This document shows, piece after piece, positions 36,701 to 59,052 of a stretch of 64,000 bases of DNA (the first letter of the stretch is position 1; every line of letters starts with the position of its first letter). The DNA comes from Chelativorans salis (lineage in GTDB: Bacteria; Pseudomonadota; Alphaproteobacteria; Rhizobiales; Rhizobiaceae): contig NZ_JAOCZP010000003.1 in the NCBI RefSeq assembly GCF_025336525.1, forward strand, positions 124,001 through 188,000, in the 5' to 3' direction. The translations under genes and the position numbers were made by a program. The notes beneath the pieces were generated by a model that saw only the letters and a program-made list of their open reading frames with translations, had not been told where the DNA came from and searched no databases.

Positions 36701-39700
36701 CTTGCGGTTTCCGATCCGGATGCGACCGAACTGCGCCTCATCGCACGTCGTACGTGGTGCTTCTTCGAAACCTTCGTGACGCCCGAAGACAACATGCTGC
36801 CCCCGGACAATTTCCAGGAGGATCCGAAGCCTGTCGTCGCGCACAGGACGTCGCCCACGAATATCGGGCTCTATCTCATCTCCACGGTTGCCGCCCGCGA
36901 CTTCGGCTGGGCCGGTACGGTCCAAACGGTGGAGCGGCTGGAAGCCACGTTGCAGACCATGCGTGGGCTCGCACGGCACGAAGGCCACTTCTTCAACTGG
37001 TATGCGACGCAGGACCTGCGTGTTCTCGAACCCGCCTACATCTCGTCGGTCGACAGCGGCAACCTTGCCGGGCATCTGATCGTGCTCGCCAATGCGTGCG
37101 AGGCGTGGATCAACGATGGCATTGCGCCAAGTGCCCGGCTCGGCATGACGGACAGCATCCAACTTGCACGTCAAGCGCTCGATGCCGTGTCCGGGAACCA
37201 CCGCGAAGCCCAACTCTCCCTGATGCTTGACGACATCGAATCCCTGTTGAACGGTCCGCAGACGCTCGACGCGTTGTCCCCCGTGCTGACGCGCCTGGCT
37301 GACAAGGCTGCCGCCACAGCGCGCGATCTAGTTCCGACGGATATCGAAGACAGCGCCCCGGATCTCGTCTTCTGGATCGAGTCCCTCAAGAAGACCGTGG
37401 CCGAACATGCACGTGACCGATCCGGGAACCCCGTTCTGAAAAACCGACTGCAGGCGCTTGCCGCGGATGCGCGCGAGATGGCGCTGGCGATGGACTTCGC
37501 CTTCCTTCTCGATCCCGAACGCAAGCTGTTGTCGATCGGCTATTCCCTCGCAGACGATAGCCTCGACCCAAGCTGTTACGATCTGCTCGCTTCGGAAGCC
37601 CGGCTTGCAAGCCTCTTCGCCATCGCCAAGGGTGATGTCGAGACACGGCACTGGTTCCGCCTGGGACGCGCCGCGACACCTCTGGGGAGCGGGTCGGCGC
37701 TGATCTCCTGGTCCGGCTCGATGTTCGAATATCTGATGCCGTCGCTCGTCATGCGCGCTCCCGCCGGCAGTCTGCTCGAACAGACCAATCGGCTGGTGGT
37801 CGAGCGCCAGCAGGCTTACGCACGGTCGCTCGGCATTCCCTGGGGGATCTCCGAGTCCGCCTACAACGCCCGCGATATGGAGCTGACCTATCAGTACTCC
37901 AACTTCGGCGTTCCAGGTCTCGGTCTGAAGCGCGGTCTCTCCGAAAACGCGGTTGTCGCACCCTACGCGACGGGGCTTGCGGCCATGATAGACCCGCACG
38001 GCGCGTGTGAGAACTACGCTCGCCTCGCACAAATGGGCGCTGGGGGCCGCTGTGGCTTCTTCGAAGCGCTGGATTTCACACGATCGCGCCTTCCTGAAAA
38101 GGAGAATTTCGCCGTCGTCCGCACGTCTATGGCTCATCATCAGGGAATGACCATCGTCGCCATCGCCAACACGCTGCACGATGGCGAGATGCGTGCCCGT
38201 TTCCATCGTGAGCCGATGATCCAGGCGTGCGAACTCCTGTTGCAGGAACGCATGCCCCGCAATGTCGTGACCGGCCATCCGAAGGCCGAAGAGGTGAAGG
38301 TTTCCCCGGCGACGGCGGATGCGGGAATCCCGACTTCACGCCGCCTTACCGCCACCACGGCGGGGCCGCCGGTCACCCAGTTGCTGTCGAACGGCCGCTA
38401 CGCGGTGATGCTCACTGCCGCAGGTGCAGGCTACAGCCGCTGGCGCGACATCGCCGTCACACGCTGGCGCGAGGACGCCACCCGCGACGACTGGGGCTCC
38501 TTCATCTTCCTGCGCGATACCCAAAGCGGAGACGTCTGGTCCGCCGGCGCCCAGCCGCTCGGCATCGAAGGAGAGCATCGCGAAGTCATCTTCGATGAGG
38601 ATCGCGCCCAGTTCATCCGCCGCGATGGCAATCTGACGACCACAATGGATGTTCTGGTCTCCGGCGAAGACGACTGCGAGGTGCGCCGCGTGTCCTTGAG
38701 CAATGGAGGGCGGCGGCCGCGCGAGATCGAGATCACATCCTACGCCGAAATCGTTCTGGCTCCGCCGGCCGCCGACATGGCGCATCCGGCGTTCTCCAAG
38801 ATGTTCGTCCAGACCGAGCATGCCGCCGAATTCGGCGCGCTCGTTGCAACGCGCCGCCTGCGCTCGCACGCTGAACCGCAGGTATGGGCTGCCCATCTCG
38901 CCGTCGTCGAAGGCGAGATCGTCTCCGATCCGCAGTACGAGACCGATCGGGCCCGGTTTGTCGGGCGCGGCCGCTCGATGGGCACCGCAGCAGCAGTGGC
39001 GGAAGATGGGCCGCTCTCGAATACCGTTGGGACGGTACTCGATCCCATTTTCTCGCTGCGCCAGCGCGTGAGGATCGCGCCCGGAAAGGTCGCGCGTATC
39101 GCCTACTGGACCGTCGTCGCATCGTCGCGCGCCGAGCTCATGGACATGATCGACAAACACCACGACCGCAGCGCATTCGAACGCGCCAGGACGCTAGCGT
39201 GGACCCAAGGGCAGGTCCAGCTTCGCCATCTTGATGTCGATGCCGGAGAGGCGGCGGACTTTCAGCGCCTGGCCGCCCCCATCCTCTACGCCGACCCTCG
39301 CTACAGGGCGCCGTCCGAGGAGATTGTCCGCGGTGCCGGTTCGCAATCCGGCCTCTGGCATCTCGCCATTTCCGGCGACCTGCCGATCGTCTTCTTGGGT
39401 ATAGACGATCCCGAAGACATGGCCCAGGTCCGCCAGCTGCTGCGCGCTCACGAATATTGGCGCATGAAAAGCCTCGCCGTTGACCTGGTGATCGTCAACG
39501 AGCGCGCATCCTCCTATACGCAGGACCTGCAAGTCGCCATCGAGACCGCCGTGCGCAGTAGTCAATCGCGGCCGCGCTTCGGGGCGGAACTCGCGCAAGG
39601 CTCTGTCTACGCGCTTCGCGCGGATCTAATGAGCGCGGAGGCGCGCGACCGGCTCCGTTCGATTGCCCGTGTCATATGCTCGGCACGCCTTGGATCGATA

Positions 39701-43365: not shown

Positions 43366-45555
43366 TTAAAGATCCTCGTTTTGCTGCCACCAGAGATCTG
43401 CATAGTGCCCTCCATGCTTCAATAAGTCCGCATGGGAGCCTTCCTCGACAATTTCGCCATGCTCGAGAACGACGATACGATCACATAGGCGCATGGCGTT
43501 CAGGCGATGGGTGATGATGATCGCTGTGCGGTTCTCCAGGACATCCGGAAGACGTTCTATGATCGCCGCTTCCGAATCGTAGTCGAGCGCACTGGTCGCC
43601 TCGTCGAAGATAAAGATTGGCGGCTGTGCTGCCAGAGCGCGTGCGATGGCGATGCGCTGCCGCTGCCCGCCCGAAAGCAAGCCACCACGCTCACCTACTT
43701 GGGTGTCATACCCGTTTGGCAGGTCGTTTATGACGAATTCATGGGCGCCGGCGAGCCGGGCTGCCTCTACCAACTCTTCCGTCGTCGCCAGAGGATTACC
43801 GAGTCGGAGGTTTTCAAGGATGGTTCCATCGAACAGGAAGCTTTCCTGCAGGACAATACCCATGTTCTTGCGCAGTGTGGCGGTATCGGCCATGGCAAGG
43901 TCTACGCCATCGACGAGCACCTGGCCGCTTTGTGGCACGTCAAGCCGCTTGATCAACCTGGTGATTGTGCTCTTCCCCGAGCCGCTGCGCCCGGTCACCC
44001 CTAGTTTTTCGCCGGCGGCGACTTTCAAACTCAGTCGCCGTACCGCCTCCGGTGCGGCCTCGCTATAGCGGAAGGTGACGTTTCGCAGCTCGATCTCGCC
44101 GCGGACCTTATGGAGAGGGGTGCGGCTTTCCACCGACCCGGTCTCCGTCTTCTCGTTGAGTATATCGCCGATACGCTTGAGGGAAACGCCCGTGTGCTGG
44201 ACGTCGTGCCAGATCTGGGCGAGACGCAGGACCGGCATGGTGACGTGGCCGGCCAGCATGTTAAAGGCGACCAGCTGGCCCACCGACAGATCGCCGGCGA
44301 GCACATGGTGCACGCCGAACCAAAGGAGAATGGCGCTGGTAACCTTGTGAACGAGACTGATACCGCCGCCGGCCCATTCGCTGAGCATCGTAGCCTTGAA
44401 GGAAGTTCTGAGAAGGGAGGCCAGCCGATCTTCCCAGTCGCGGGAAAAACGCTCCTCTATCGCTAGGCACTTCACCGTCTCGATTCCCGTGATCGCTTCG
44501 GTTAGGTAGGCGGTGTTGTCGGCATGCCGCTCCAATTCACGCTTCATGCAGCGCCGCAGAAATGGGGCGACGATTATCCAGAAGACTAGGTAGACGACGA
44601 ACGAACCCAGGACGATCGAAGCAAGATCGACCGCATAGCTGTACATGAAGGCGACGAAGACGCCTACAAAGACAAGATCCAGCAACAGGATCAGGGCGGA
44701 TCCGATCAGGAACCTGCGTATGTGATCGAGCTCCCGCACACGCGCGATGATTTCGCCGACCTGCCGTTTGGTAAAGAAGCCGAGCGGCAGATGCACCAAG
44801 TGGCGGAACAGCTTTGTCGAGAACTCTGCATTCACGCAGCTTGCCAGATGCGCGTAGACGAGGCCGCGCAAATATTCCATGAGCGGATTGAAGAGGGCTA
44901 TACCCAGCATTCCGATTGCCAGCACTTCGAGGCTTTGCAGCCCACGGCTGACGAGCACGCGGTCGATGACGAGCTCCGACAGCTTGGGAGAGGCCAGTGC
45001 GAATAGTTGAAGCACGAAGGCAGCCGCGATGACCATGCGGAAGCTCGCCGCGTGCTTCAGGATTGACGGCAGAAACCACCCCAGATCGAAGGACTTCCCC
45101 TCTTCCTCCGCAGCCGGTGCACCTGCCCCCACAAGTATGATGCGCGTAGAAAAGCGCTGCCGGACGTCGGCGTGGGAGAGACGCAGCCGCCGGCCATCTG
45201 TTGGCGAGAGCAGTTGCACCTCTGAGTCCGTGACTGCTTGCAGAACGCAGTATTGCCCGTGGTCGCGTTCGCGGAGAAGCGCAGGCAAAGGTAGGAAACG
45301 CAATCTCTCGAACCGGATTTCGGCAGCGCGGACCCGCAAGCCAAGCCGCTTGACCGCCCGCAGGATGTCCATCTCCTGGAAAATACCTTCCGTAGGACTC
45401 TCGATATGCCAGACCTGCCAGGCATCAGCAGCTTTGCCGAGGCTGCGGGCAGCGGCTATCAGCGCCTGCAGACCGCTGTCCTGTGCGAGACTGGCCTTCA
45501 CATCCCCAGCGCCGCTCCTGCGCGCTTGCGCAACGGCTTCAACTACCGCGTCCAT
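43366..45555 (-). CDS. Type I secretion ABC transporter, HlyB-like (second ATPase of an RtxBDE-like system)
   Basis: A 729-residue exporter subunit. Residues 1 to about 150 form a C39-like domain without the catalytic Cys (substrate-binding rather than cleaving), then six membrane helices, then a complete ATPase: GRSGSGKST (Walker A), LLSGGQRQRIAIARAL, IFIFDEATSALD (Walker B) and an ITHRL switch His. Its ATG follows the HlyD stop directly (no gap). It is the last gene of a three-gene operon ABC-HlyD-ABC. It probably pairs with the first ABC protein. Confidence 0.93.
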   Translation of the reverse strand: MDAVVEAVAQARRSGAGDVKASLAQDSGLQALIAAARSLGKAADAWQVWHIESPTEGIFQEMDILRAVKRLGLRVRAAEIRFERLRFLPLPALLRERDHGQYCVLQAVTDSEVQLLSPTDGRRLRLSHADVRQRFSTRIILVGAGAPAAEEEGKSFDLGWFLPSILKHAASFRMVIAAAFVLQLFALASPKLSELVIDRVLVSRGLQSLEVLAIGMLGIALFNPLMEYLRGLVYAHLASCVNAEFSTKLFRHLVHLPLGFFTKRQVGEIIARVRELDHIRRFLIGSALILLLDLVFVGVFVAFMYSYAVDLASIVLGSFVVYLVFWIIVAPFLRRCMKRELERHADNTAYLTEAITGIETVKCLAIEERFSRDWEDRLASLLRTSFKATMLSEWAGGGISLVHKVTSAILLWFGVHHVLAGDLSVGQLVAFNMLAGHVTMPVLRLAQIWHDVQHTGVSLKRIGDILNEKTETGSVESRTPLHKVRGEIELRNVTFRYSEAAPEAVRRLSLKVAAGEKLGVTGRSGSGKSTITRLIKRLDVPQSGQVLVDGVDLAMADTATLRKNMGIVLQESFLFDGTILENLRLGNPLATTEELVEAARLAGAHEFVINDLPNGYDTQVGERGGLLSGGQRQRIAIARALAAQPPIFIFDEATSALDYDSEAAIIERLPDVLENRTAIIITHRLNAMRLCDRIVVLEHGEIVEEGSHADLLKHGGHYADLWWQQNEDL

Positions 45556-46947
45556 CTATCGCTCGCGCATTGCATTGTGCTGATGATCCATGAGCGGGCT
45601 CAGCAGGTAGTCGATGACGCGGCGGCTGTCGGTTTTGATTTCGGCGGTGACCTGCATGCCAGTGGCCAGGAGCACGTCCTTGCCATCGACGGCGATCGCG
45701 CGCGCCGACAGACGTATGTGTGCAGGATAGATCAGCCCGAGTTGCTCGTCGGTAACAGAGTCGCGTGAAACATGCAGGATCTTCCCCTTAACGGTTCCAT
45801 AGCGCGTGTAGGGAAAGCTTTCTATCTTCAGCTCCACCGGCTGGCCCGGAAGCAGGAAGCCGATGTCCTTGTTCAGTACCTTCACCTCGGCCTCCAAGGC
45901 TGCTTCGTCAGGCACGACCATCATCAGTTCTTGTCCCGCCGTCACGATGCCGCCGATCGTATGGACTGCCAGCTGCTGGACCACACCGTCGACGGGGGCG
46001 CGAATGGTCAAGTGCCGCGCCCTTTCTTTGGCCTTGATGTGCTCTTGCCTCAGGTCCACAAGCTTTCGGCGCTCTTGGTCGAGCTGCTCCATAAGGGTTC
46101 TACGCCGCTCAGTTCTTTGCTGCTGCCTTTGACTTTCGAGCGTCTTGACATCGGTCTTCAGCACTTCGAGTTCGGACCTTTTCGCTAGCAGCTCCCTTTC
46201 GCGGCTGAGCAACTGCTCCTTAAGCTCCAGAAGCTTCAGGCGCGGGAAATGGCCTTTTTTAAAGAGCTCCTCTCTGCCCTCATAGCGCTCGCGCATATTG
46301 GAAAGCAGCATCTCCAATTCTACTATGTCGCGCTGGGCGGCCTCCTGTTGGACCGTGTTGTGCGCAAGTTGGGCGGTGAAGGTTTCTTCTTCCGCCTGCT
46401 GTTCCTGATATGCACTCATCAGCCGCTCCCGCACACGCGCCACTTTGGCGGGGGCGATACCCTTGGGCGGATCGAAGCTCCCGGGATCATCCGTAAGTAG
46501 CGCTTCCAGTCGCGTAATTTCCAGAATGGAAAATTCGACCTGGGCGTCGAGACGCTCGGCCTCTGCTTCGGCGCTGATGGGGACCAGCTCGACCAGAATG
46601 TCCCCGCGGGTTACGGACTGGCCATCGCTTGCATGAATGCTGCTGATCTCGCCTAGTTCCGGCGCCTGTACGACCTTGGAATATTGGCTGGCGATGATCC
46701 TTCCAGGGGCCGAGGCGATGACGTCGATCTTGCCGAAAATCGACCATAGCAGGGCAAGTGTGCAAAGGACCATTATTGCCAAAGCGACCAGGCGCCCCAC
46801 CCGCGAGGGCGATCGTTCCAGTATCTCCAGATGGCCTGGCAGGAACTCAAGTTCCAAATCCTGCCTCCTCGGCGGCTTCTCCGTCTTGCGCTGGCTCCTC
46901 AGCGTTTGCCGGACGATGCGGAGATGATGTCGGACTCCCTGAAACAT
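45556..46947 (-). CDS. HlyD-family periplasmic adaptor of the type I system
   Basis: A 463-residue membrane fusion protein linking inner-membrane ABC proteins to an outer-membrane TolC channel. A short cytoplasmic tail and one membrane segment (LVALAIMVLCTLALLWSIFG) precede a lipoyl/hairpin region with about 170 residues of coiled coil (to KERARHLTIRAPVDGVVQQL), then the barrel with VEVKVLNKDIGFLLPGQPVE-like sequence. Its ATG overlaps the stop of the first ABC gene (TAATG). No tolC-type gene is in the window. Confidence 0.94.
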   Translation of the reverse strand: MFQGVRHHLRIVRQTLRSQRKTEKPPRRQDLELEFLPGHLEILERSPSRVGRLVALAIMVLCTLALLWSIFGKIDVIASAPGRIIASQYSKVVQAPELGEISSIHASDGQSVTRGDILVELVPISAEAEAERLDAQVEFSILEITRLEALLTDDPGSFDPPKGIAPAKVARVRERLMSAYQEQQAEEETFTAQLAHNTVQQEAAQRDIVELEMLLSNMRERYEGREELFKKGHFPRLKLLELKEQLLSRERELLAKRSELEVLKTDVKTLESQRQQQRTERRRTLMEQLDQERRKLVDLRQEHIKAKERARHLTIRAPVDGVVQQLAVHTIGGIVTAGQELMMVVPDEAALEAEVKVLNKDIGFLLPGQPVELKIESFPYTRYGTVKGKILHVSRDSVTDEQLGLIYPAHIRLSARAIAVDGKDVLLATGMQVTAEIKTDSRRVIDYLLSPLMDHQHNAMRER

Positions 46948-49181
46948 TATACCTGTTCCCCCTCCTGTGGCATGGCAGCAGCCCTTCCCGGAAGGAGCTC
47001 CGCGCTCGCCCCGATTTCATCGACATGTGCACCAGGAGCGCCATGTGACCGGCCAGACTGCGCATGCCAGAGACGGGCATACGTCCCCTCTTGGGCGATC
47101 AAGGTTTTATGATCGCCGGTTTCGACAACGGCTCCCTTGTCAATGACGAAGATCCGGTCGCAAGCACGCACCGTCGACAGCCGATGGGCGATGATGAGTA
47201 CGGTTCGGCCAATACGGATATCCCGTAGATTGCGCTGAATGATCGCCTGCGAGTGCTCGTCGAGGGCGCTGGTGGCCTCGTCGAAGATCAGTATCGCAGG
47301 ATCGGCAAGCAGGGCACGCGCAATTGCGATGCGCTGTCTTTGCCCGCCGGACAGCGATGCCCCGCCTTCTGCGAGAATCGTGCCATAGCCTTCCGGCAGC
47401 TCCAGGATGAACTCGTGTGCACCAGCCATTTCCGCCGCTCGGATAACCTTTTCCAGCGGAACCGCAGGGTCGGTGAGCGCGATGTTTTCTCTGATGGACC
47501 GGTTGAAGAGAAAATTTTCCTGCAGGACCACGCCCATGTGCCGGCGTACAGAGGCTGCATCCAGGCGCGCAAGGTCCATGTTATCGAGGAGGATGCGCCC
47601 TGCGTCCGGATGGTAGAGCTTCTGGATCAGGCGGGCGATAGTGCTCTTGCCAGAGCCGGATGGGCCCACCAGCGCAACCATGGCCCTTGATGGTATCTCT
47701 AGACTGAGGTTCTGCAGGATGGGTGGTGCATCGGGGGCATAGCGGAAGCTGACGCCTTCAAAACGGATGTCACCCTTCGGCCGCAGGCTCAGCGTCCCTT
47801 GTTGCGCTTCGCTTTCGGCCGGCGTGTTCAGCACGTCTCCCAGCCGATCGATGGCAACCCTGGCCTGAACATATTTGCGCCAAAGCTCCGCAAGGCGCAC
47901 GACAGGCTGGCTGACGTGGTTGGCCATCATATTGAAGGCGATGAGTTGCCCGATGGACAGTTCCAGGCCGATAACCATCCGCGCGCCAAACCACGTCACC
48001 AGAACCATCTCGATCTTCTGGATCGTCTGGACCAAATTGCTCGACAACTGCATGAAACGCTGCGCCTCGAAATTCGAGGCGACAAATGATCGTGTCTGCC
48101 CCTCCCAGCGCCGGGTGAGTTGCGGCTCCAAGGCAAGGGACTTTACGGTCTCGATGCCGGTAAGCGTTTCGTTGAGGAAGGCGTTATTGACCGCGCTGTC
48201 GCGGTAAAGCGACTCGATGCGCCGCTGCAGCGGTGGCGTAACCAGATAGCCTACGACAAAGTAGCAGGGGATAGAGGCGGCAACGATCGCCGTCAGAAAA
48301 GGAGAATAGAAATACATCACCGTGAAGAAGATGCCTGTAAAGGCAAGATCAATCACCAGAGTGTTGATCGCGCCGGTCAGGAATTCGCGCAGGGTATCCA
48401 GCTGGCGGACGCGCGTGACGGTAACGCCGACGCTGCGCGCCTTGAAATAGGACAGCGGGAGTGCCATCAGATGGCTGAACAGATTGGAACCCAGACGCGC
48501 ATCGATGCGAAGTGCCGTCTGCGAAGCCACGTATTGGCGCAAACACCTCAACACCACTTCCAGCACCGAGACGACAACGAGGACCGTGGCAAGCACATTC
48601 AGCGTAGCGGTGGCGTGGTGCACGAGGACCTTGTCCATGACCACCTGGAAGAAAAGCGGCGAAAGGAGCGCCAGCAGCTCCATGAAGGCGGACGCGGCTA
48701 GGACTTCCCAAGCGAGATTACGGTAGCGCAGCAACTCGGGAATGAACCAGGTCACATCAAAGGTGGGGGTGCCGTGTCCGTTCTTTCCGCCGCGGACTTC
48801 GACGATTTCGCCGCTCCAGATGGCTTCGAGCTCATCAAGGGAAAGACGCAACGGCTCGATATGCTCCTTGCGCTGAATGACTGCGCACTGGTCGTCCTTC
48901 ATGGTCAGGATCGCCCAGTCGCCATCAGTTGCTTTCCAGGCGATCGGCAGGCTGGAATCTCCCAGCTTCCGTAAGGCCCTGCGACGCCACCGGACCCGCA
49001 AACCGGCTTGCTTGCATAGATGTCGCAATGCCGTTTTCGGCGGCAGATCAACCAAGGCGGAAGCAGCACTTTCGGCCTGGACCCGGTCTTCAACAACTTC
49101 CAACACGATGCCGACGGTTAACACGCATGCCAGCAACGATGCCGTTTGCTGAGACTCAGGAATAGTATTCGATATAACCAT
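46947..49181 (-). CDS. Type I secretion ABC transporter, HlyB-like (first ATPase of an RtxBDE-like system)
   Basis: A 744-residue exporter subunit. The N-terminal 140 residues resemble a degenerate C39 domain (ALRHLCKQAGLRVRWRRRAL). Six membrane helices follow (FMELLALLSPLFFQVVMDKV first), then the ATPase: GPSGSGKST, ASLSGGQRQRIAIARALL, ILIFDEATSALDEHS and IIAHRL, all intact. It is only moderately similar to the other ABC protein at 43366, so a heterodimer is likely. The leader and first codons are AT-rich, unlike the rest. The start at 49181 lacks a clear Shine-Dalgarno. Confidence 0.93.
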   Translation of the reverse strand: MVISNTIPESQQTASLLACVLTVGIVLEVVEDRVQAESAASALVDLPPKTALRHLCKQAGLRVRWRRRALRKLGDSSLPIAWKATDGDWAILTMKDDQCAVIQRKEHIEPLRLSLDELEAIWSGEIVEVRGGKNGHGTPTFDVTWFIPELLRYRNLAWEVLAASAFMELLALLSPLFFQVVMDKVLVHHATATLNVLATVLVVVSVLEVVLRCLRQYVASQTALRIDARLGSNLFSHLMALPLSYFKARSVGVTVTRVRQLDTLREFLTGAINTLVIDLAFTGIFFTVMYFYSPFLTAIVAASIPCYFVVGYLVTPPLQRRIESLYRDSAVNNAFLNETLTGIETVKSLALEPQLTRRWEGQTRSFVASNFEAQRFMQLSSNLVQTIQKIEMVLVTWFGARMVIGLELSIGQLIAFNMMANHVSQPVVRLAELWRKYVQARVAIDRLGDVLNTPAESEAQQGTLSLRPKGDIRFEGVSFRYAPDAPPILQNLSLEIPSRAMVALVGPSGSGKSTIARLIQKLYHPDAGRILLDNMDLARLDAASVRRHMGVVLQENFLFNRSIRENIALTDPAVPLEKVIRAAEMAGAHEFILELPEGYGTILAEGGASLSGGQRQRIAIARALLADPAILIFDEATSALDEHSQAIIQRNLRDIRIGRTVLIIAHRLSTVRACDRIFVIDKGAVVETGDHKTLIAQEGTYARLWHAQSGRSHGAPGAHVDEIGASAELLPGRAAAMPQEGEQV

Positions 49182-50049: not shown

Positions 50050-50757
50050 ATGACGGCGGAGCAGCCTGGAATCCGGGAAATGAGTGCCCCGTGGAGCGGT
50101 GACCTCGCTCCACGCCTGGCAAGGTTGCGCCCCGATCTGTTCGACCTTCTGTTCGGCGAATGCCGGCCGGAACGATACAGCGCCGGCGAGCACCTCTTCA
50201 TGCAGGAGGACGTGGCCGATCGCATTTACGGCGTCCTGTCGGGCACGGTGGAGATTTCGATCTACTCTCCGGGCGGGCGCAAGCTCGTTGCCAATATCGA
50301 ATTGTCGCGCAGTCTTGTCGGCGAGATCGGGGTGCTTGACGGAGGCGCCCGCACGGCGAGCGCCCTCTGCCTGACTGATTGCACGCTGGTTTCCCTCAAC
50401 AGAGCGCAGCTTTTTGACAAGCTGGAGAAAAACGCCGCCCTCGCGCTGGCGATGATAGGGCTTTTGTGCGCACGCTTACGCTGGGTGAGCGGCGAGCGAA
50501 ACGATCAGGCTTTGCTCAAGATCGAAGCCCGCCTCGCCAAACGGCTGTTGTTCCTCTCCGGGATTTTGGCTGACAAGGATGGCTGGATTGCAATTTCACA
50601 AGCTGAACTCGCCGCATTTCTGGGGGCGACCCGCGAATCAGTCAACAAGATGCTGAACGAATGGCGTAGCCGTTCGCTGATCATGATAAAGCGCAGCGCA
50701 ATCCGCGTGACGAATGCGGATGGCTTGCAGGAGATCGTCGACCTGGGGGACGCGTGA
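50050..50757 (+). CDS. Crp/Fnr family regulator, CRP-like
   Basis: A 235-residue regulator: cyclic-nucleotide-binding domain with the phosphate cassette SLVGEIGVLDGGARTASALC (Gly-Glu and Arg-Thr-Ala, close to CRP's GE and RSA), a long C-helix (about residues 130-160), and a C-terminal winged helix AELAAFLGATRESVNKMLNE whose RES recognition segment resembles CRP's RET. There are no Fnr-type N-terminal cysteines. cAMP sensing is therefore plausible. Its stop is 28 bp from the stop of the P450-peroxidase gene, convergent, and a cyclase gene lies beyond that. Confidence 0.9.
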   Translation: MTAEQPGIREMSAPWSGDLAPRLARLRPDLFDLLFGECRPERYSAGEHLFMQEDVADRIYGVLSGTVEISIYSPGGRKLVANIELSRSLVGEIGVLDGGARTASALCLTDCTLVSLNRAQLFDKLEKNAALALAMIGLLCARLRWVSGERNDQALLKIEARLAKRLLFLSGILADKDGWIAISQAELAAFLGATRESVNKMLNEWRSRSLIMIKRSAIRVTNADGLQEIVDLGDA

Positions 50758-50785: not shown

Positions 50786-53700
50786 TTAAAGCTGCGAGAG
50801 CAAATAGCGCAGGCTCGACCGGCTCGGCATGAAGAAATAGCCGCCGCCGCGCGTGGTGACGAATTCGGGCAGGCCGGTCAGCACCAGTGAGCCGTCGCTG
50901 GAAGGGATTGTGAAGCGCCCCTCCCCGCCACTGGCTCCGATCGTCGGGTCCTTCTCTGCCAGAAGCCCGTGAAAGGTGGCGGCCGAGACCCAGCTTTGCT
51001 GCATGAACTCGTATTGGCGCTCAATATCGGCGTTGAAGCACATGAAGAGCAGCCCCTTTTCGCTTCCCCTCTCATAGGAGCGCCCGCAGCGCAGGATGCG
51101 GTGGCGATTGTTGAGCTTGATCTGTGTCTCCTTGTCGTTGCCCAGAGAGTCGCGCGGATTGGAACGGCGCACATGCGAGCCGAACGGGCAGCGTAGCCCC
51201 TGCGGGTCCTCCGTCGCGTAGGAGAAATCGTTGTCCGGCTTGCGTGCCTTGCGGCCGTTGGGGTTGCGGACGAGCGACGTTCCGTCAGGCCAGCGGCCAA
51301 CCATTTTCGCGGAGATCCAGCGCGCATTGATGGCGGAATTGCCGGTCTGCGACCGCGCCGTCCTTGCGGCCTTCTTGCAGTACGCATGGAACGTCTCGAC
51401 GTGCTGTTCGATCTGGCGCACCACGACAAAGGAGCCGTTCCTGCCGAAGTCCCGCAACTGTGCTGTTGCCCCGAAGAGCGGTTGATGCTCGCTCTCCACT
51501 GCCGGCAGTACGCCGCAGCGGTCGCGTGAGGAAGGAACTGTCGGGGTCAGCGGATAAAAACCACTCTCGTCCTTGTAACCCAGGAGGAACTCGCCGGGGG
51601 CCACCAGGTGCATGGAGGGGACCGGCGCATTGGCGCGCCGGGTGCCCAGAACAACCGGCTGCGAAATTCCATCTGCGAATCCGAAATGTTCGACCGCCTG
51701 CTTCCCCTGCCTGTTTATCACGAGCGGCAGTTGGGTGACGATCGTCATCCCCGCCTCTTCCGTGCACGCGTGGAATTCCCGGACATCCTCCGTGAGCGTC
51801 TCCTCATCGGCCGCGTAGCATATGACCACTGCATCCACCGGCTTTTCCGCCGATCCCCACTCCCAGCACGCCGGCGCACTGCGGCCGACGTCGTCGAGTA
51901 TGCGGCTTCTCGGCTCTGTGGCCATTCCCTGGCGGAATACCGCTGGGAAGGTCTCAAGCCCGCTCTCGCGCGTATGATCGTCGAGGCCGAGGCGCGCCAG
52001 CCCGTTCGGCCCGAACATGACTGTCATCGCCCGCTTCACGGGAAGCCCGTTGCCGAAGCTGGTCCTCTCTTCCACGAAGCGCAACCATGCCTTGCGCTTC
52101 CCTCGTGCAAGGCCCTCGGGAATGCTAACCGCCGTCATGTGCGCATGCTGGAGGGGGCCGAGGGGGCCGAAGAAAACCGTCTGTATCTCTTCCGTTTCCA
52201 GCGCGTCGTGCGGGCGCGGCTGGGAACCGAAAAGCCGAAGCCAGTCGCGCGCCTCGCTCTCGGTCTCGGCCTTCGCAATGCCGCTTCTTATGAGCGCGTT
52301 GATACGAATGCGGTTTGTGTTGAGGCCGGGATAGGCCGAATACCAGAAAAGGGTGGGTATCTGCTGTGCCCGCGCCCACCGCTTGAAGCGGGCGCCGTCT
52401 CTCGCGCCCTCGAAGAAAAGAGAACGGGTCCTCGGAAAGCCCTGCGTGTTGCTCCAGACCCCGGTCAAACCGGCGCGCGCCTTGGCGATGAAGTCTTCGA
52501 GATAGCTTTCCCAACTGCCTCCGTAGTTGCTGAAGAACACCAGCCTGTCCGTGCCAGGCAGCAACACCCAGCGCGCAAAATGGATTGTGTTAATGTCGGC
52601 GAGGAAACCGGGTCGGAAGACATTCCGGGCCGTGATGGAGATGAGATAGAAGGAAAGACGCAGCGTCAGCCGCCGCAGCATGCCGGGCTTCATGACCGAG
52701 ACGGCGGTTAGGTTGTTCTGCGGGAAGTGGTTTTCCCGCCTGACGATCTCGGCCAGTGTTTCCGGATCTGGCTGAGTGTCGCTGGGCACGTCCCGTTTCT
52801 CAAGCCGCCGGAGCGCGATATGAAGGAGCAGGCCGACGAAGGCCAGAGACATGCTGACGCCGACAAGAGCAAGCACGAGCGAGGTCCCGGCCACCAGAAG
52901 ATTGCGGAAGACGCCGGGCACGTATCCGAAGACAAGGCTGTAGGTAATCCCCCAGCACATAAGAAGCACGATTGCAGCGGTCACCAGCAGCCTCGGCGAC
53001 CGGATCGTCCTCTTGAACGCAGCCCACGCACTTCCCTTCGGCATTTCCAGAAGGCTTTGCGCCGGCTCCAATGCCCATCGATAGCAGTCACCCTGCGTCA
53101 GCTTTTCCCGCACTTCGGCAAGCACGGCGCCGGCACCATCGCCCTGCGCATTTGCCACGATCCCGCGCACCGCACTCTCCAACTCCGCCTCTGCACGAAT
53201 ACGAGCGACCGAATGGCCGGGCGTTCCGGAAAATACTAGGCCTACGTTGCTGCCGAATGTCGGAGAGATCCTGATCATTCGCGCGCGCATGAAATCTTCG
53301 AGCGGCTCTTCCGCATCCAGCCCGCATCGGTCCTCCAACAAGCCGCGAACCAGAGAACCGGCATGTTCGGCAAAAGCCTGCACCACGGCTTCATCCGCGC
53401 CGTCGCCCGAAAGTTCGAGCACGAGATGTGTCCGTTCACCGTTCGCGGGGGCGCTCGGCGCACAGACGACCGCAAGACTCGCAAAATGGATGATGCCGCT
53501 TGCGTCCAGCGCCACCGCTGCCGGCTCGTTCGCCGGGTTGCCAAGCTTGCCGACCTCCTCGCGCAACTTTTCGGCTTCCGTGCCGTCGTCGCACGCGAAC
53601 ACTACAGAGACCATGGAGTGCTCTACCGTTTTCGAAAGCGGCGAAGGTTCGAAGACGATCCTCAGGCTCTCCGGATAAGCGCCGAGCCGCGAAAGACGGC

Positions 53701-54943
53701 CGGCCCTGCCCTTCGCCCGCCGCACGCCCGGCTTTGAGAAGATTGCTCGGAAGCATTCGGCGATCTGGACGCGGGCGATTGCCGCGCCGATGCATTGGTG
53801 AATGCCGTGACCGAAGACGAGATAGTCGCGCGCCGGCCGTTCGATGTCGAACACATTCGGATTGGCCACGGCGTCCGGATCGAACATTGCCGACAGCATC
53901 GCCGGCATGACGGCGGTTCCCGCCTTGACCGCACGTTCCCGCCGCGTCCCCTTGGCGATCACGGCGTCGCGTGCGGTGTAGCGAAACGGTCCGATCCAGA
54001 TCGGCTTGAACCGCATCGCCTCCAGGATCACCCGCTCGAGACGTGTATCGTCCTTCGCGGCGACGGCCTCCTCGATTGCCTTGCGGGCCTCGTTGCGCGA
54101 AAGGACGACGTCAAGGCAGTTACTGCCGGCCAGCAGGTTGGTCGGCGCAAAGCCCGCGATCATGCCCATCATGATGGAATGGACATCGCCGATGCCGAGG
54201 TCGGAACTGGTGTCGTCGAGCAGGTCGACAAGCCTGCCAAGTGGCGTCAACCGGCTTGTCGTGCCGCCCCGAACCGCCTCTATGGACAGGTCAATCGTTC
54301 TTTTCATCCTGTCGGCGGCGACGACGGCAAGCTCACGCGCGATCGGATTGGCGAAGGGGTCGGCAAAGAACAGGCCGCTCAGCGCATTCGCCCAGTCGGA
54401 GAACTGCTTCTCGTCGTCGATCCTCATGCCGAAATAGTCACGGCAGATGCGCACCGGCACCACCTTCAAGAGCTTATCCACCACGTCGAAATCGGGAGAC
54501 GCCCGACGCATGATCTCCTCAGCATGCCGGGCCGCCAGCGGCCTCACCACCTGCTCCACCTCGTCTATGGGAAAGGCGCTCAGGATGGTGGATTTCATGT
54601 GCCGATATTGCGGCCCGTCATGCATTCCGAGGATGAAGTTTTGCCCGCCCGCGATTTCCGTCATCTCCGGGCCGTACGGCGTCTGGAACACATCCTGCCG
54701 TTCGAGGACCTCACGGACGTCCGCATTTCTGGTCACCAGAAGAAACTTGCCGAAACGCGGCATCGGCCAAAAACGCCTAAGTAGCGCAAGCGCCCAGCGC
54801 GGGTCTTCCAGAAGTCGCTCCGCGAGACGCGCCCACACGCCTCGCGTGCGCAGGCGCTCCATGTCGAACGGGGGTAGCTCAGTCGGCGGCCGCTGCTCCT
54901 TCTGACCTTTAAGAACCCCCTCGTAGTATTTGACAGCCACCAT
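50786..54943 (-). CDS. Cytochrome P450 - Dyp-type peroxidase fusion protein
   Basis: A 1385-residue, two-heme fusion. Residues 1 to about 430 form a P450: ExxR in EAMRFKPIW and the heme-thiolate loop FGHGIHQCIGAAIARVQ (Cys near 388). Its I-helix reads GMIAGFAPTN, without the usual acid-alcohol pair. A linker and two membrane segments follow (about 650-710: LLVTAAIVLLMCWGITYSLV and LLVAGTSLVLALVGVSMSLA). The last 680 residues include a poorly known domain (FFSNYGGSWESYLEDFIAKA) and a DyP peroxidase with GFADGISQP (catalytic Asp) and CPFGSHVRRSNPRD (proximal His near 1254). ATG at 54943 has GGAGGG upstream; a TTG at 54964 is less likely. No ferredoxin gene adjoins. Confidence 0.93.
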   Translation of the reverse strand: MVAVKYYEGVLKGQKEQRPPTELPPFDMERLRTRGVWARLAERLLEDPRWALALLRRFWPMPRFGKFLLVTRNADVREVLERQDVFQTPYGPEMTEIAGGQNFILGMHDGPQYRHMKSTILSAFPIDEVEQVVRPLAARHAEEIMRRASPDFDVVDKLLKVVPVRICRDYFGMRIDDEKQFSDWANALSGLFFADPFANPIARELAVVAADRMKRTIDLSIEAVRGGTTSRLTPLGRLVDLLDDTSSDLGIGDVHSIMMGMIAGFAPTNLLAGSNCLDVVLSRNEARKAIEEAVAAKDDTRLERVILEAMRFKPIWIGPFRYTARDAVIAKGTRRERAVKAGTAVMPAMLSAMFDPDAVANPNVFDIERPARDYLVFGHGIHQCIGAAIARVQIAECFRAIFSKPGVRRAKGRAGRLSRLGAYPESLRIVFEPSPLSKTVEHSMVSVVFACDDGTEAEKLREEVGKLGNPANEPAAVALDASGIIHFASLAVVCAPSAPANGERTHLVLELSGDGADEAVVQAFAEHAGSLVRGLLEDRCGLDAEEPLEDFMRARMIRISPTFGSNVGLVFSGTPGHSVARIRAEAELESAVRGIVANAQGDGAGAVLAEVREKLTQGDCYRWALEPAQSLLEMPKGSAWAAFKRTIRSPRLLVTAAIVLLMCWGITYSLVFGYVPGVFRNLLVAGTSLVLALVGVSMSLAFVGLLLHIALRRLEKRDVPSDTQPDPETLAEIVRRENHFPQNNLTAVSVMKPGMLRRLTLRLSFYLISITARNVFRPGFLADINTIHFARWVLLPGTDRLVFFSNYGGSWESYLEDFIAKARAGLTGVWSNTQGFPRTRSLFFEGARDGARFKRWARAQQIPTLFWYSAYPGLNTNRIRINALIRSGIAKAETESEARDWLRLFGSQPRPHDALETEEIQTVFFGPLGPLQHAHMTAVSIPEGLARGKRKAWLRFVEERTSFGNGLPVKRAMTVMFGPNGLARLGLDDHTRESGLETFPAVFRQGMATEPRSRILDDVGRSAPACWEWGSAEKPVDAVVICYAADEETLTEDVREFHACTEEAGMTIVTQLPLVINRQGKQAVEHFGFADGISQPVVLGTRRANAPVPSMHLVAPGEFLLGYKDESGFYPLTPTVPSSRDRCGVLPAVESEHQPLFGATAQLRDFGRNGSFVVVRQIEQHVETFHAYCKKAARTARSQTGNSAINARWISAKMVGRWPDGTSLVRNPNGRKARKPDNDFSYATEDPQGLRCPFGSHVRRSNPRDSLGNDKETQIKLNNRHRILRCGRSYERGSEKGLLFMCFNADIERQYEFMQQSWVSAATFHGLLAEKDPTIGASGGEGRFTIPSSDGSLVLTGLPEFVTTRGGGYFFMPSRSSLRYLLSQL

Positions 54944-54997
54944 CGCTCTCCCTCCGGGATTCAACAGTTGCTCCTACGTCGTTGAGCGCCCCGCGTA

Positions 54998-55023: not shown

Positions 55024-56775
55024 TCATCCCGCCAATTCGAAATTGCTTATAAGAGCGGCCTTCGCGGATGCATCGGCGAATGGAATCCATTCGATGCGCG
55101 CGTTCGTGAAGTCGGGGTGCCGTGTCCGGAAAATGGAAAGCTCCCGCCGAGCCTCATCAAGACGGCCGCTGCGTGCAAGCGCTCCGATCTTCAGGAAGCG
55201 TGCATAGAAATAGCCGGGGGAAAGACTGAGTGAGCGGTCCGCGGTCTTGATTGCCTCGTACCACTGGGAGGTAAGGCAATAGGCAGCGGCCAGCTCACCA
55301 AGATTGTGGAAGGCATAGATGTCGAAAGGGCTCAGCCGCGATGCCGCCTGAAAAAGCGGGATCGCCTCCTCCGCCTGTCCGAGAAGAAGGTGCGCGCTCC
55401 CCATGGCCGAGTGGGCAAAGGCGAAGCTGGGATTTATCTCGAGCGCCTCGCTCAGATGTTCGAGAGCCGCCTTCGGCTGACCGCGCATAATCGCGACAAT
55501 GCCAAGATAGGCGTGCGGGCGTGCATCCTGGCTGTCCATCAGCAGCGCCTTGCGCGAATACTCCACTACCTTGTCCAGATCGTCGCTGTCGCCCGAGCGC
55601 AGCCATGCACGCCAGAAATACCACCACGCGAATTCGTTGAGCACCGCACTTGAATTGGCATCTTTCGTCTGCGCCAACTTAAAGCACTCGAACGCCAGGG
55701 CTGTATCCTCGCGGCTGCGGCGCTGCATATGCCAACGGCCGCGCCTGACGAGTTGCCATGTCTCCAGGCTCTCCCACGGAACCTGGAAGGTACGCACCTG
55801 CTCGGCCCGCTCAACCTCCTTTTCCAGCATCGAGACGATCATGCCGCCGATCTCGTCGTGAAGCATTGCCACCTCGTCAGCCCGTCGCTTGAACTCTCGC
55901 GACCAGATCAGCCTTCCATTTGCCGCATCCGTGAGCGTGACCTTCAGGGCGAAATATGTATTCGCCCGGGCGAGCTTGCCGTCGACGATATAACGCGCGC
56001 CCAGCGCACTGCCGATCATCCGCGTACCGAGCGATTTGCCGCGAAACTGAAAGCTGGAGCTCTTGGCGATGACGGGCAGCCATCGGGTGTTGGAAAGGCC
56101 CTGGATGACATCCTCCGCAATGCCGTCCGCAACGTAGTCGAGTTCGCGGTCCCCGATCTCGTTGTGAAAAGGTAGAACGGCGACGGCCGGTGGCATGGCC
56201 GCAGAGGACTCTTGCTGACGAGGGAGGAGCACATCAGCGCCGTCGCTGCCGTCGTGAGTTGCCGTGAATATGCGCACGGGCAGCGCTATGTTCTTCAGGA
56301 CCCGCTCGCCTAGATCCGTGAAACGGGCGGCCGTCTTATCCTTCACGTGATGCCAGGTGGTCTCGGAGATCGCCAGCCCGTCATAGGGTGCAAGCTCCTG
56401 GATACGGGCGGCAATGTTGACGTCGTCGCCGTACAAGCTCTCGTCGCGGACGATCACGCTCCCGGTATTGATGCCCACGCGGAAAGGCATGCGCATCTCG
56501 TCGGAAACGGAGGCGTTCAGCGCCGCGATCTTCTCCTGAAAGTCGAACGCCGCCCTCATGGCATCGATCGGCGCTCCGAATTCGGCCATGAGACTATCGC
56601 CTGCCGCACCGAACATCCGTCCGCCGCCAGCATCGCAACTTTCTACAATGATCGCCCGCCGCGCCTCGAAAGCCGTTACAGCAAATTCGTCATTGATGCC
56701 CATCAGGCGTGAAAAGCCAGCGGCATCAATAGAAACGATGGTTGCGACATGACGGGTATATAGCCGTCCAGTCAT
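55024..56775 (-). CDS. Class III adenylate/guanylate cyclase with TPR domain
   Basis: A 583-residue cytoplasmic cyclase. The catalytic domain (1 to about 175) has metal aspartates in IVSIDAAGFSRL and FGAAGDSLMAEF, plus VGINTGSVI and YGDDVNIAARIQ with the transition-state Asn/Arg. A TolB/FlgO-like region (about 195-310, AVLPFHNEIGDRELDYVADG) follows, then TPR repeats to the end (ALEHLSEALEINPSFAFAHS). This domain order is a large rhizobial family. ATG at 56775 is chosen; a TTG at 56853 would extend it. The regulator CRP-like gene and the P450-Dyp gene lie downstream. Confidence 0.92.
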   Translation of the reverse strand: MTGRLYTRHVATIVSIDAAGFSRLMGINDEFAVTAFEARRAIIVESCDAGGGRMFGAAGDSLMAEFGAPIDAMRAAFDFQEKIAALNASVSDEMRMPFRVGINTGSVIVRDESLYGDDVNIAARIQELAPYDGLAISETTWHHVKDKTAARFTDLGERVLKNIALPVRIFTATHDGSDGADVLLPRQQESSAAMPPAVAVLPFHNEIGDRELDYVADGIAEDVIQGLSNTRWLPVIAKSSSFQFRGKSLGTRMIGSALGARYIVDGKLARANTYFALKVTLTDAANGRLIWSREFKRRADEVAMLHDEIGGMIVSMLEKEVERAEQVRTFQVPWESLETWQLVRRGRWHMQRRSREDTALAFECFKLAQTKDANSSAVLNEFAWWYFWRAWLRSGDSDDLDKVVEYSRKALLMDSQDARPHAYLGIVAIMRGQPKAALEHLSEALEINPSFAFAHSAMGSAHLLLGQAEEAIPLFQAASRLSPFDIYAFHNLGELAAAYCLTSQWYEAIKTADRSLSLSPGYFYARFLKIGALARSGRLDEARRELSIFRTRHPDFTNARIEWIPFADASAKAALISNFELAG

Positions 56776-57040
56776 CTTCGATCCGGCTAGCCGCCCCTCG
56801 CCTTCAAGCGGAAAAGAATATCTCTGCAGCAGGTTTCCGACAACCGCGAGCAACTTGAATATTCACGGCCACCCCACGCGGTCCTTTTGCATTCGTGTCG
56901 TCTGCAGTCGGTACATACGATTGCACGAATAGAAGAAGCATGTGTAGCAAATTTCACAGACGAAGGGGACAGGCACCCCTTAGTTTGCAAGCCTTCAAGA
57001 AAACCAGTTCCAATTATCAACGCACAAGGGGGTGCTCGAC

Positions 57041-57835
57041 ATGATGCTTTCTACGCATACAGGCCTTGGTCTCGAAAGGCAGGGTATGTTCCGTAGTACG
57101 GAACGCATTTCCAAAGAAGAGACGGACAATTTTGACGACGAAATGCAGTCTGATGGGAATGGTCCCGTCGAAGTCAGCGAAGGACTGCAATCGGTTGCTC
57201 TGATCGACAATCGTACGCTCCGCAGGGAGTGCTTGCGGCGCAGTCTGGTGTCACAACGCATTTCGTGGGTCGTGGCTGGCTATGGTTCAGTTGAAGAGTG
57301 GAGCACGTCGGAGGATCTTCATCCTCCCCTGGCGGCGATTGTCTTCCACCTGGGTGCGCAGAAAGCCACCGATGCGGCCGATCAGATCAAGAAGATCGTT
57401 TCCAGTGCCGGCGCGCTGCCTGTTATAGTTCTCGCCGACTCTGACGACATCGTTCAGATCGTCAGTGCACTGGACTACGGGGTTCGCGGCTATATCCCGT
57501 CCTCGGTGAGCATAGAAGTCTGTGTCGAAGCGATCAATTTGGCACTTGCTGGGGGTGTGTACGTACCGGCAAGCAGCGTTTTTGCAATTCGCCAGTCCAT
57601 CACATCCGACACGTCGCGAAACAGCCGCCTGGTAGAACTTTTCACACCGCGTCAGATAAAGGTCGCAGACGCCATCAGGCAGGGCAAACCGAACAAGATC
57701 ATCGCCTATGAGCTCAACATGTGCGAAAGCACCGTGAAGGTTCACATCCGCAATATCATGCAGAAGCTGAAGGCAACGAACCGCACCGAGATCGCTTATA
57801 AAATAAGGGATCTATTCCCCAGCGATACGGCTTGA
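57041..57835 (+). CDS. LuxR-type regulator with degenerate receiver domain
   Basis: A 264-residue regulator. Residues 1-40 are unrelated; 45-165 have a receiver-like fold (SVALIDNRTLRRECLRRSLV ... IVFHLGAQK ... VIVLADSDDIVQIVSALDYG) but the usual phospho-accepting Asp at the third strand is absent (IVFHLG). The C-terminal LuxR helix-turn-helix is IRQGKPNKIIAYELNMCEST, VKVHIRNIMQKLKATNRTEI. AAGGGGG lies before the ATG at 57041. It is the paralogue of the gene at 57965, tail to tail. Likely an exopolysaccharide or motility regulator, by context. Confidence 0.9.
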   Translation: MMLSTHTGLGLERQGMFRSTERISKEETDNFDDEMQSDGNGPVEVSEGLQSVALIDNRTLRRECLRRSLVSQRISWVVAGYGSVEEWSTSEDLHPPLAAIVFHLGAQKATDAADQIKKIVSSAGALPVIVLADSDDIVQIVSALDYGVRGYIPSSVSIEVCVEAINLALAGGVYVPASSVFAIRQSITSDTSRNSRLVELFTPRQIKVADAIRQGKPNKIIAYELNMCESTVKVHIRNIMQKLKATNRTEIAYKIRDLFPSDTA

Positions 57836-57964: not shown

Positions 57965-58726
57965 TCAGGGCAGCATCTCTCTTATCTTGTAGGCCACCTC
58001 CGTGCGATTGGTGGCGTTGAGCTTTTTCATGATGTTGCGGATATGGACCTTGACCGTGCTTTCACAAAGCTGCAGTTCGTAGGCGATTATCTTGTTCGCC
58101 TTTCCACGCCGCAATGCTTCCGCGACTTCCGCCTCACGCGACGTGAACAGATTGCCGAGACCGGCAACGCGGTTGGTCGTCGAGTTGATGACGTCGCGCA
58201 TGGCGAGCACACCGCTGGCGGGTACGAACACACCTCCCGCGCGTGCCAGCAGTATTGCCTCCGCGGCCACGCCGACACCAACGTTGCTGGGGATATAGCC
58301 CCTCGCCCCAGAGTCGAGCGCCTTCAGGATCTGCCCGAGATCGTCTGTATCGGCGACGACAACGACGGGGCTTCCCTCGAATTTCCTCGCCAGATCCTGG
58401 ATTTCACCGCACACGGCCGGTTCGGCTATCTTCCTGCTGCCGACGATGAACAGCACCGCGGACGGTTCACGTGCTTCATGATGTCCGCGCCATTCGCTGG
58501 CGGAGCCGACCGCCACGATATCCATGGCGGGGTTTTGCTCGCTCAGGCTCCGTGCCAGGCACTCCCGGTCGAGCGCTCGCGGATCGATCAGCAGAACAAG
58601 ATCGTGGTGCTTCTCATCACCCGGATCTCCCCCTGCGTCATACTCTCCTATTTTCTCCAAAGTCCCTGGTATGTTTGGTACCCGTTTAAGGCCAGGTACC
58701 TGTGTAATCGCGTTCGCATATTCCAC
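57965..58726 (-). CDS. LuxR-type regulator with degenerate receiver domain (paralogue)
   Basis: A 253-residue regulator. GTG at 58726 with AGGGGAG upstream is preferred to an unlikely extension to 58882. The receiver-like region (LVLLIDPRALDRECLARSLS ... VLFIVGSRK ... VVVVADTDDLGQILKALDSG) again lacks the acceptor Asp. The C-terminus, RRGKANKIIAYELQLCESTV then KVHIRNIMKKLNATNRTEVA, is nearly identical to that of the gene at 57041, so both may recognise the same DNA. Expression is from the AT-rich interval at 58727-59052. Confidence 0.9.
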   Translation of the reverse strand: MEYANAITQVPGLKRVPNIPGTLEKIGEYDAGGDPGDEKHHDLVLLIDPRALDRECLARSLSEQNPAMDIVAVGSASEWRGHHEAREPSAVLFIVGSRKIAEPAVCGEIQDLARKFEGSPVVVVADTDDLGQILKALDSGARGYIPSNVGVGVAAEAILLARAGGVFVPASGVLAMRDVINSTTNRVAGLGNLFTSREAEVAEALRRGKANKIIAYELQLCESTVKVHIRNIMKKLNATNRTEVAYKIREMLP

Positions 58727-59052
58727 GACACAACTCCCCTGACAATTGCTTGTCTTGCACAGGCCCCGACCCCAAAGGCGGCGAACCTGCGTGTTTCCTT
58801 CTCCAGTCCCCAGTTGCCATTCCCCAAACCCTTGCGGAACAACCGTCCGCCCCCGTTTTCGAGAGGCATCCCGATTGGTCAACTTGGACCATAAGTATCT
58901 GCATACTTGTGGATAAGACGCACTAACTTGGATTAATGCCTTGCCAAATATTCATCATCCGTTAATCAAATACCCTAACAACTTTTTGGTAATATAATGC
59001 ACAGAAGTACAACCAATGGTGACTCCATAAGGCCACATCGGTCGAAAAGGGG
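58727..59052. other. AT-rich regulatory interval of the exopolysaccharide locus
   Basis: About 325 bp between two same-strand regulators. It is far richer in A+T than the surroundings over 58890-59020. It contains a perfect dyad AAGTAT-CTGC-ATACTT (58893-58908) and two AACTTGGA copies near 58871 and 58925. It must hold the promoter of the LuxR gene at 57965; the dyad is a candidate operator. Confidence 0.5.

Follow-up and report, generated by a model that had tools for sequence, protein, structure and literature searches.

What would a cytochrome P450 and a DyP-type peroxidase do when they are joined, by way of a membrane linker, in a single polypeptide? The question is raised by a gene of Chelativorans salis (assembly GCF_025336525.1, contig NZ_JAOCZP010000003.1, positions 124,001-188,000 of the forward strand; this whole stretch of 64,000 nucleotides is called the window here). 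A sequence-only reading of the gene had proposed that two heme enzymes share a chain of 1385 residues and that the P450, lacking its acid-alcohol pair, may use peroxides directly or isomerise hydroperoxides. The reading favored here is that the product is a membrane-tethered, self-sufficient di-heme enzyme that handles peroxides or hydroperoxides and acts on a hydrophobic, membrane-derived substrate, and that, in a more widespread bacterial module composed of a domain called HFA, a DyP and a second heme enzyme, it is the variant that carries a P450. This answer is tentative, with a probability of roughly 0.4. The parts of the gene are as follows.

50786..54943, minus strand: P450-HFA-membrane hairpin-HFA-DyP fusion gene, a single open frame of 1385 amino acids.
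54951..54955, minus strand: GGAGG ribosome-binding sequence, 7 bases ahead of the ATG at 54943.
53639..54943, minus strand: P450 domain, residues 1-435.
52979..53623, minus strand: HFA domain copy 1, residues 441-655, from a profile across loci; no Pfam match.
52817..52987, minus strand: predicted membrane hairpin, residues about 653-709, from hydropathy.
52148..52801, minus strand: HFA domain copy 2, residues 715-932, IHFARW...SNYGGSWESYLEDF, from a profile across loci; no Pfam match.
50789..52111, minus strand: DyP peroxidase domain, residues 945-1385; TIGR01413 above cut-off, and 8re3 matched at E 2.5e-40.

A domain search of the gene places both enzymes above curated cut-offs. The P450 half scores 59.2 bits against Pfam p450 (cut-off 22.8), and the DyP half scores 27.2 bits against Dyp_perox_C (PF20628, cut-off 20) and 104.5 bits against the NCBIfam model Dyp_perox_fam (TIGR01413, cut-off 100.5). 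At E values up to 1, p450 and Dyp_perox_C are the only Pfam matches to the chain. Two heme enzymes in one open frame are thus confirmed, and the hydrophobic segments at about residues 653-671 and 691-709 bear out the membrane linker between them. The fusion is genuine, neither a chance event nor an assembly artefact, because it is intact in many species.

Residues 441-932 hold a duplicated, uncatalogued domain, with the hydrophobic hairpin between the copies. The label HFA is our own, after its IHFARW motif. The two copies are homologous (hhalign 95.6%, E 1.3e-8). Ten proteins were scanned with Pfam at E values up to 10 (the two window copies, six HFA proteins of other loci, and two proteins that are not HFA): neither window copy had a match, and the six others had none or weak ones below the cut-off. 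Searched as a profile against the PDB, HFA matched nothing credibly (best E 0.03). The idea that HFA is a third DyP-like domain was set aside, as hhalign gave a probability of only 0.1-1.1% between HFA and the halves of DyP, in a test of little power that gave these halves only 0.3% against each other. Basic residues occur on both outer flanks of the hairpin, the number of hydrophobic segments varies among 11 proteins, and both enzyme halves would lie on the cytoplasmic face.

The residues expected to bind heme are located at these positions.

54011..54022, minus strand: P450 ExxR motif, E308-R311 (EAMR), from sequence alignment.
53792..53794, minus strand: P450 heme thiolate C384, in the Cys loop FGHGIHQCIG, from sequence alignment.
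51668..51682, minus strand: DyP GXXDG motif, here GFADG, with distal D1091, from the match to a solved DyP.
51173..51175, minus strand: DyP proximal heme ligand H1257, from the match to a solved DyP.
51089..51091, minus strand: DyP distal R1285, from the match to a solved DyP.

Judged by these residues, both heme sites look intact. The P450 half has the P450 fold, and the FGxGxHxCxG signature is present as FGHGIHQCIG and ExxR as EAMR. Its closest solved relatives are TbtJ1 (5vws), EryK/CYP113A1 and CYP109E1, at about 20-24% identity in fold alignments. The DyP half does not lack a heme site: D1091, H1257 and R1285 are all present, and they are without variation in 11 fused proteins. In the sections of PMC10820274 available, the equivalent residues of the solved Deinococcus radiodurans DyP are D189, H324 and R348. 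A structure model of the HFA-DyP portion is weak (mean pLDDT 46.2); its best fold matches are DyPs, as are most of the matches listed, and two ferredoxin-like subdomains around the heme may be present.

How the P450 would activate oxygen depends in part on its I-helix.

54098..54193, minus strand: I-helix, residues 251-282, from the secondary structure of an AlphaFold2 (AF2) model.
54140..54145, minus strand: P267-T268, Pro at the acid position and Thr kept, from gap-free alignment to relatives and the family profile; two alignments give another register.

The sequence-only reading had taken A-G-F-A-P as the counterpart of AGx(D/E)T, with acid and alcohol both lost. The loss of the acid holds, and the loss of the alcohol most likely does not, as Thr268 is kept in the register of the intermediates. 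Relatives without a DyP read GGIETT, GAIETT or GAVETT, and gap-free alignment to them sets P267 opposite the acid and T268 opposite the Thr. The sequence GLLIGAVETT of one such locus (L097) differs from GLLIGAVPTT of a DyP-linked one (L080) solely by the change of E to P, and the intermediates read E-T-T or D-T-T. The same assignment results when the profile of the family is compared with MycG (AGYEST) and TbtJ1 (AGHLTT). The earlier register, which would put A266 at the acid and P267 at the Thr, was chosen by MAFFT with canonical AGHETT rows and by a single-sequence phmmer comparison with TbtJ1, each with a nearby gap; the acid is absent in either register. The P267/T268 register was adopted because the E-to-P intermediates were held decisive over these two gapped alignments, and the register with both residues lost was rejected on account of the ETT/DTT intermediates together with the family profile. 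The acid is lost in 42 of 46 DyP-linked P450 rows versus 1 of 7 unlinked rows, all of them related and not phylogenetically independent. The rows seen with Pro at this position were either DyP-linked or from a single short contig (L104).

A motif scan of 19 fused loci and of the window turned up no credible ferredoxin gene. At one locus (L029), annotated ferredoxin and oxidoreductase genes stand beside P450, catalase-family, HFA and DyP genes, and this P450 keeps the acid. At another (L088), a DyP-linked P450 of the GGPPQPP group has a real-looking [2Fe-2S] ferredoxin (18740-19105) about 5 kb away.

Nine of 61 near genomes, the window's own among them, match at E ≤ 1e-20, and six hold the one-frame fusion; 26 of 297 genomes of the order match at E ≤ 1e-25, mostly not with the fusion. 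The P450 profile (E ≤ 1e-40) matches 11 of 385 genomes of the class, the DyP half (E ≤ 1e-30) 9 of 385, and the HFA search (E ≤ 1e-8) 15 of 398 genomes of the phylum. Named genomes yielded 12 loci, one of them cut by a contig end. Matching plasmid records number 97, nine of which cover at least 80%, among them plasmids of Pararhizobium, Novosphingobium aromaticivorans (pNL2) and Sulfitobacter. On a Sinorhizobium medicae plasmid (L123, 6001-7848) the match covers nothing ahead of query residue 677, and it is closely preceded by an IS630 transposase gene; the gene looks as though it had been truncated.

Three kinds of fusion occur: P450-HFA-DyP as in the window, DyP-P450, and DyP joined to a catalase-fold protein. 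The last two are found at the following loci.

L099, 7801-11229: DyP-P450 fusion, in the opposite order, as in fungal PpoA.
L144, 713-3757: DyP-P450 fusion, in the opposite order, as in fungal PpoA.
L157, 4688-8623: DyP-P450 fusion, in the opposite order, as in fungal PpoA.
L085, 9688-12390: fusion of DyP and a catalase-fold protein; an HFA gene lies upstream of it.

Phylogenetic reconstruction of the P450s places the N-terminal P450-HFA-DyP fusions in one group (support 97/95) and the three DyP-P450 fusions in another (100/99); in the tree, each of the two groups has a single origin. The rows nearest to the N-terminal fusions are the split forms L075 and L076 (joint support 100/100), in which these parts are divided, in unchanged order, between two neighboring genes; the two genes of L075 share a reading frame, with one stop between them. 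In a first tree, calculated after removal of L003, L004, L005, L047, L048, L057, rows shorter than 330 residues and near copies, the canonical P450 of L010 fell within the clade of the fusions, at the end of an extremely long branch. The second tree omits L105 (the same gene as L010), the near copies L013, L014, L018, L031 and L106, also L017, L029, L104 and L145, and rows shorter than 250 residues. It is without the window's own row, near which L012 (89% identical) stands.

The partners of DyP extend beyond P450. Sixty-two DyP loci were classified by profiles (the copies L106 and L159 are not counted): in 41 the sole partner is a P450 and in 12 it is a catalase-fold protein, whereas one locus (L029) has both and eight have neither. 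These shares are biased since many of the loci were fetched by a P450 match. The 41 comprise 20 P450-HFA-DyP fusions, 3 DyP-P450 fusions and 18 separate P450 genes. Sixty of the 62 loci contain HFA; in L078 and L157, where none was found, the DyP gene is near a contig end. The HFA search is less biased, and 13 of its 15 matching genomes have a P450 or catalase-fold partner, the others being G148, where the genes are near a contig end, and G418. As far as profile matches identify the partner, a second heme enzyme, either a P450 or a catalase-fold protein, adjoins the HFA-DyP genes or is fused to them in several phyla.

Catalase-fold cassettes are present in D. radiodurans, Rhodococcus koreensis, Acinetobacter lwoffii, Sphingomonas AAP5 and Microvirga. 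Searched against the PDB, a profile of 12 of the proteins matches 3e4w (E 2.6e-8), a "putative uncharacterized protein" that we take to be catalase-related, as well as catalases and the coral allene oxide synthase (E 2.0e-6); another profile search of the family gives the coral allene oxide synthase-lipoxygenase at E 5.5e-4. In 5 of the 12 members Asn replaces the His of the HAK motif, presumably the distal His of catalases. Lipid-type genes neighbor some cassettes (a patatin-like phospholipase, an acyl-CoA thioesterase, a 3-hydroxyacyl-CoA dehydrogenase), and GMC oxidoreductase genes, which could supply H2O2, lie beside L084 and L087. In a tally of 53 neighbors of the fused loci, only regulators and TPR proteins form families of more than two members (first 25 of 58 families); among 78 neighbors of the other loci, nothing recurs beyond transporters, the families being single or paired (first 25 of 103 families).

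Regulators also flank the fusion in the window.

55024..56853, minus strand: class III cyclase and TPR gene, 80 bases upstream of the fusion, from Pfam and cyclase motifs.
50050..50757, plus strand: convergent Crp/Fnr-type regulator, from Pfam.

The cyclase/TPR gene is probably on the same transcript as the fusion. Among 19 fused loci with flank, several of them close relatives, 18 have a regulator gene, about 550-690 residues long, immediately upstream (the exception is L077), and 10 have a Crp-type gene downstream. In the window clade the upstream gene shows the motifs of a class III cyclase; another domain takes the N-terminal place in L024 (annotated as SARP family), L025, L083 and L089, and the remainder is common to all. 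The split forms L075, L076 and L093 also have a cyclase-AAA-TPR gene alongside, as does L099, the fusion of reversed order.

Elsewhere in the window, two convergent LuxR-type regulators with similar C-termini, the first with a GerE domain, stand side by side at 57032-57835 and 57965-58882. At 43366-49181, an HlyD-type protein is encoded between two ABC exporters, of which one has a C39-peptidase-like domain. A protein of 2833 residues with GH94 and glucoamylase domains (33716-42217) is presumably similar to the cyclic beta-glucan synthase NdvB.

In the favored reading, the P450 would break the O-O bond of a peroxide, by a peroxide shunt or a hydroperoxide rearrangement, and would bypass NAD(P)H and ferredoxin. 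The DyP half would activate peroxide, or would make an oxidised intermediate for the P450 to consume, and the hydrophobic substrate would be drawn from the membrane. The products may be oxylipins, and the cyclase/TPR and Crp genes probably regulate the enzyme by way of a cyclic nucleotide. The reading is favored because the same partners have been fused repeatedly, in all three kinds of fusion, and because the closest split forms keep the parts in order. The partner in 13 of the 15 HFA-search genomes and the match of the catalase-fold profile to the coral allene oxide synthase-lipoxygenase argue in the same direction, as do the loss of the acid in 42 of 46 linked rows, with the acid kept in the L029 P450 that adjoins a ferredoxin, the want of a credible ferredoxin in the 19 fused loci, and the lipid-type and GMC oxidoreductase genes beside some cassettes.

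Other observations weigh on the opposite side. The rows behind the 42 of 46 are related, and the linked rows that keep the acid include, besides L029, L140 and two in L143, where a motif scan of contig stretches of 6 and 11 kb found no ferredoxin. The kept Thr268 is compatible with ordinary O2 activation, and acid loss alone is not diagnostic of peroxide use, because TbtJ1 (AGHLTT) and EryK (AGHITT), among the closest solved P450s, are also without the acid. Fifteen Fer2 matches elsewhere in the genome make a redox partner in trans possible, and the L088 P450 lacks the acid yet has its ferredoxin gene nearby. Eight of the 62 DyP loci (L027, L086, L094, L103, L119, L123, L125 and L158) have neither partner nearby, no lipid enzyme recurs among the first 25 families listed in either neighbor tally, and the poor HFA-DyP model gives substrate transfer no geometric support. 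The claim of direct peroxide or hydroperoxide use, as first made, gains from the allene-oxide-synthase-like protein that fills the P450 slot in relatives and loses from the I-helix; that no redox partner is needed agrees with the fused loci and the window, and is tempered by the Fer2 matches.

The main rival, itself unlikely but to be taken seriously, is that the P450 is an ordinary monooxygenase served by a ferredoxin and reductase in trans, and that the DyP removes H2O2 leaked by uncoupled turnover. Thr268, the Fer2 matches, the ferredoxin genes at L029 and L088, and the closest solved relatives, which are bacterial P450s of which two also lack the acid, are all as this rival would have them. 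It does not account as readily for the ferredoxin-free fused loci or for an acid loss concentrated in the DyP-linked rows, and plain peroxide removal may not be the shared theme, as 5 of the 12 catalase-fold partners lack the HAK His. A role in oxidative coupling is quite improbable: the DyP, whose catalytic residues are intact, would make radicals of a substrate such as a phenol or polyene, and the P450 would direct their coupling or hydroxylation in a biosynthetic step. Fusion would favor the trapping of short-lived radicals, but it is regulators and no biosynthetic family that recur among the 53 neighbors of the fused loci (first 25 of 58 families). Least likely is a sensor whose two hemes detect O2, NO or peroxide and control the neighboring cyclase/TPR regulator, for although regulators lie upstream in 18 of 19 fused loci with Crp genes in 10, cyclase-AAA-TPR genes adjoin L075, L076, L093 and L099, and the cyclase domain is swapped in four upstream genes, the catalytic residues of two enzymes are kept beyond a sensor's needs and no cyclase family is among the first 25 of 103 families near the other loci.

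A bolder form of the peroxide-handling reading, which we regard as doubtful, is that HFA-DyP modules are an independently evolved bacterial counterpart of cyclooxygenase/dioxygenase systems. DyP and HFA would oxygenate a membrane-derived lipid, and the P450 or catalase-fold enzyme would turn the hydroperoxide into a signal read by the cyclase/Crp circuit. If true, this would give DyPs a native role and provide another way to build a di-heme oxylipin synthase.

No published P450-DyP fusion was found in a literature search that reached neither most subscription papers nor bioRxiv preprints, and the main text of PMC8197338, as far as available, mentions neither fusion, fused nor peroxidase. The module of HFA, DyP and second heme enzyme was likewise not found described in the literature searched.

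Among known P450s, TbtJ1, EryK/CYP113A1 and CYP109E1 are stand-alone, in contrast to the fused window P450. CYP152 peroxygenases have an I-helix Arg-Pro in place of the acid-alcohol pair, and the window helix (251-282) is without any Arg. CYP74 enzymes have an altered heme-binding loop with an insertion, whereas the window loop is the standard bacterial FGHGIHQCIG. Monooxygenases with the acid-alcohol pair have Asp or Glu before the I-helix Thr; the window P450 most likely has the Thr, as T268, and lacks the acid.

The closest solved peroxidase, the D. radiodurans DyP (DR_A0145, 8re2/8re3), has the same His, Asp and Arg as the window but is stand-alone, with no P450; in the sections of PMC10820274 available, Met replaces the last Gly of its GXXDG motif, where the window has the usual Gly. 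In the stretch of the D. radiodurans plasmid record that was read, the only DyP gene sits in an HFA-DyP-catalase family cassette and would be DR_A0145. The coral allene oxide synthase-lipoxygenase (1u5u, 3dy5) resembles the catalase-fold partner of other HFA-DyP loci, a protein not found beside the window gene, and both systems would include a hydroperoxide-using heme partner; the annotated neighborhoods of HFA-DyP loci that were read contain no lipoxygenase. Repeated fusion or pairing with two unrelated hydroperoxide-type heme enzymes provides a concrete hypothesis for what DyP peroxidases do in nature, a role that is still largely to be established.

The fungal fusions (PpoA, linoleate diol synthase and allene oxide synthase) are the nearest parallel in layout. 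They too join a heme peroxidase-type domain to a P450 in one chain, and their I-helix also departs from the acid-alcohol pair; the fungal 9S-allene oxide synthase has V-P-x-T in substrate recognition site 4 (SRS4) of the I-helix (PMC13049297, Table 3, in the part available), a likeness only, whose register may differ from that of the window. Homology to PpoA is ruled out by the lack of an An_peroxidase domain in the Pfam scan at E values up to 1, and the parallel drawn earlier holds for two heme enzymes in one chain but not for their order. The fungal peroxidase half is of the peroxidase-cyclooxygenase type and, in the PpoA family, N-terminal; in the window it is a DyP and the P450 is N-terminal, with HFA domains and a membrane hairpin in addition, and the PpoA order occurs in L099, L144 and L157. 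That a layout of this sort is able to make oxylipins is known from the fungal fusions. If the DyP and P450 do hand on a hydroperoxide, they would represent a separate bacterial invention of the fungal oxylipin synthase layout, with a P450 that may need no redox partner.

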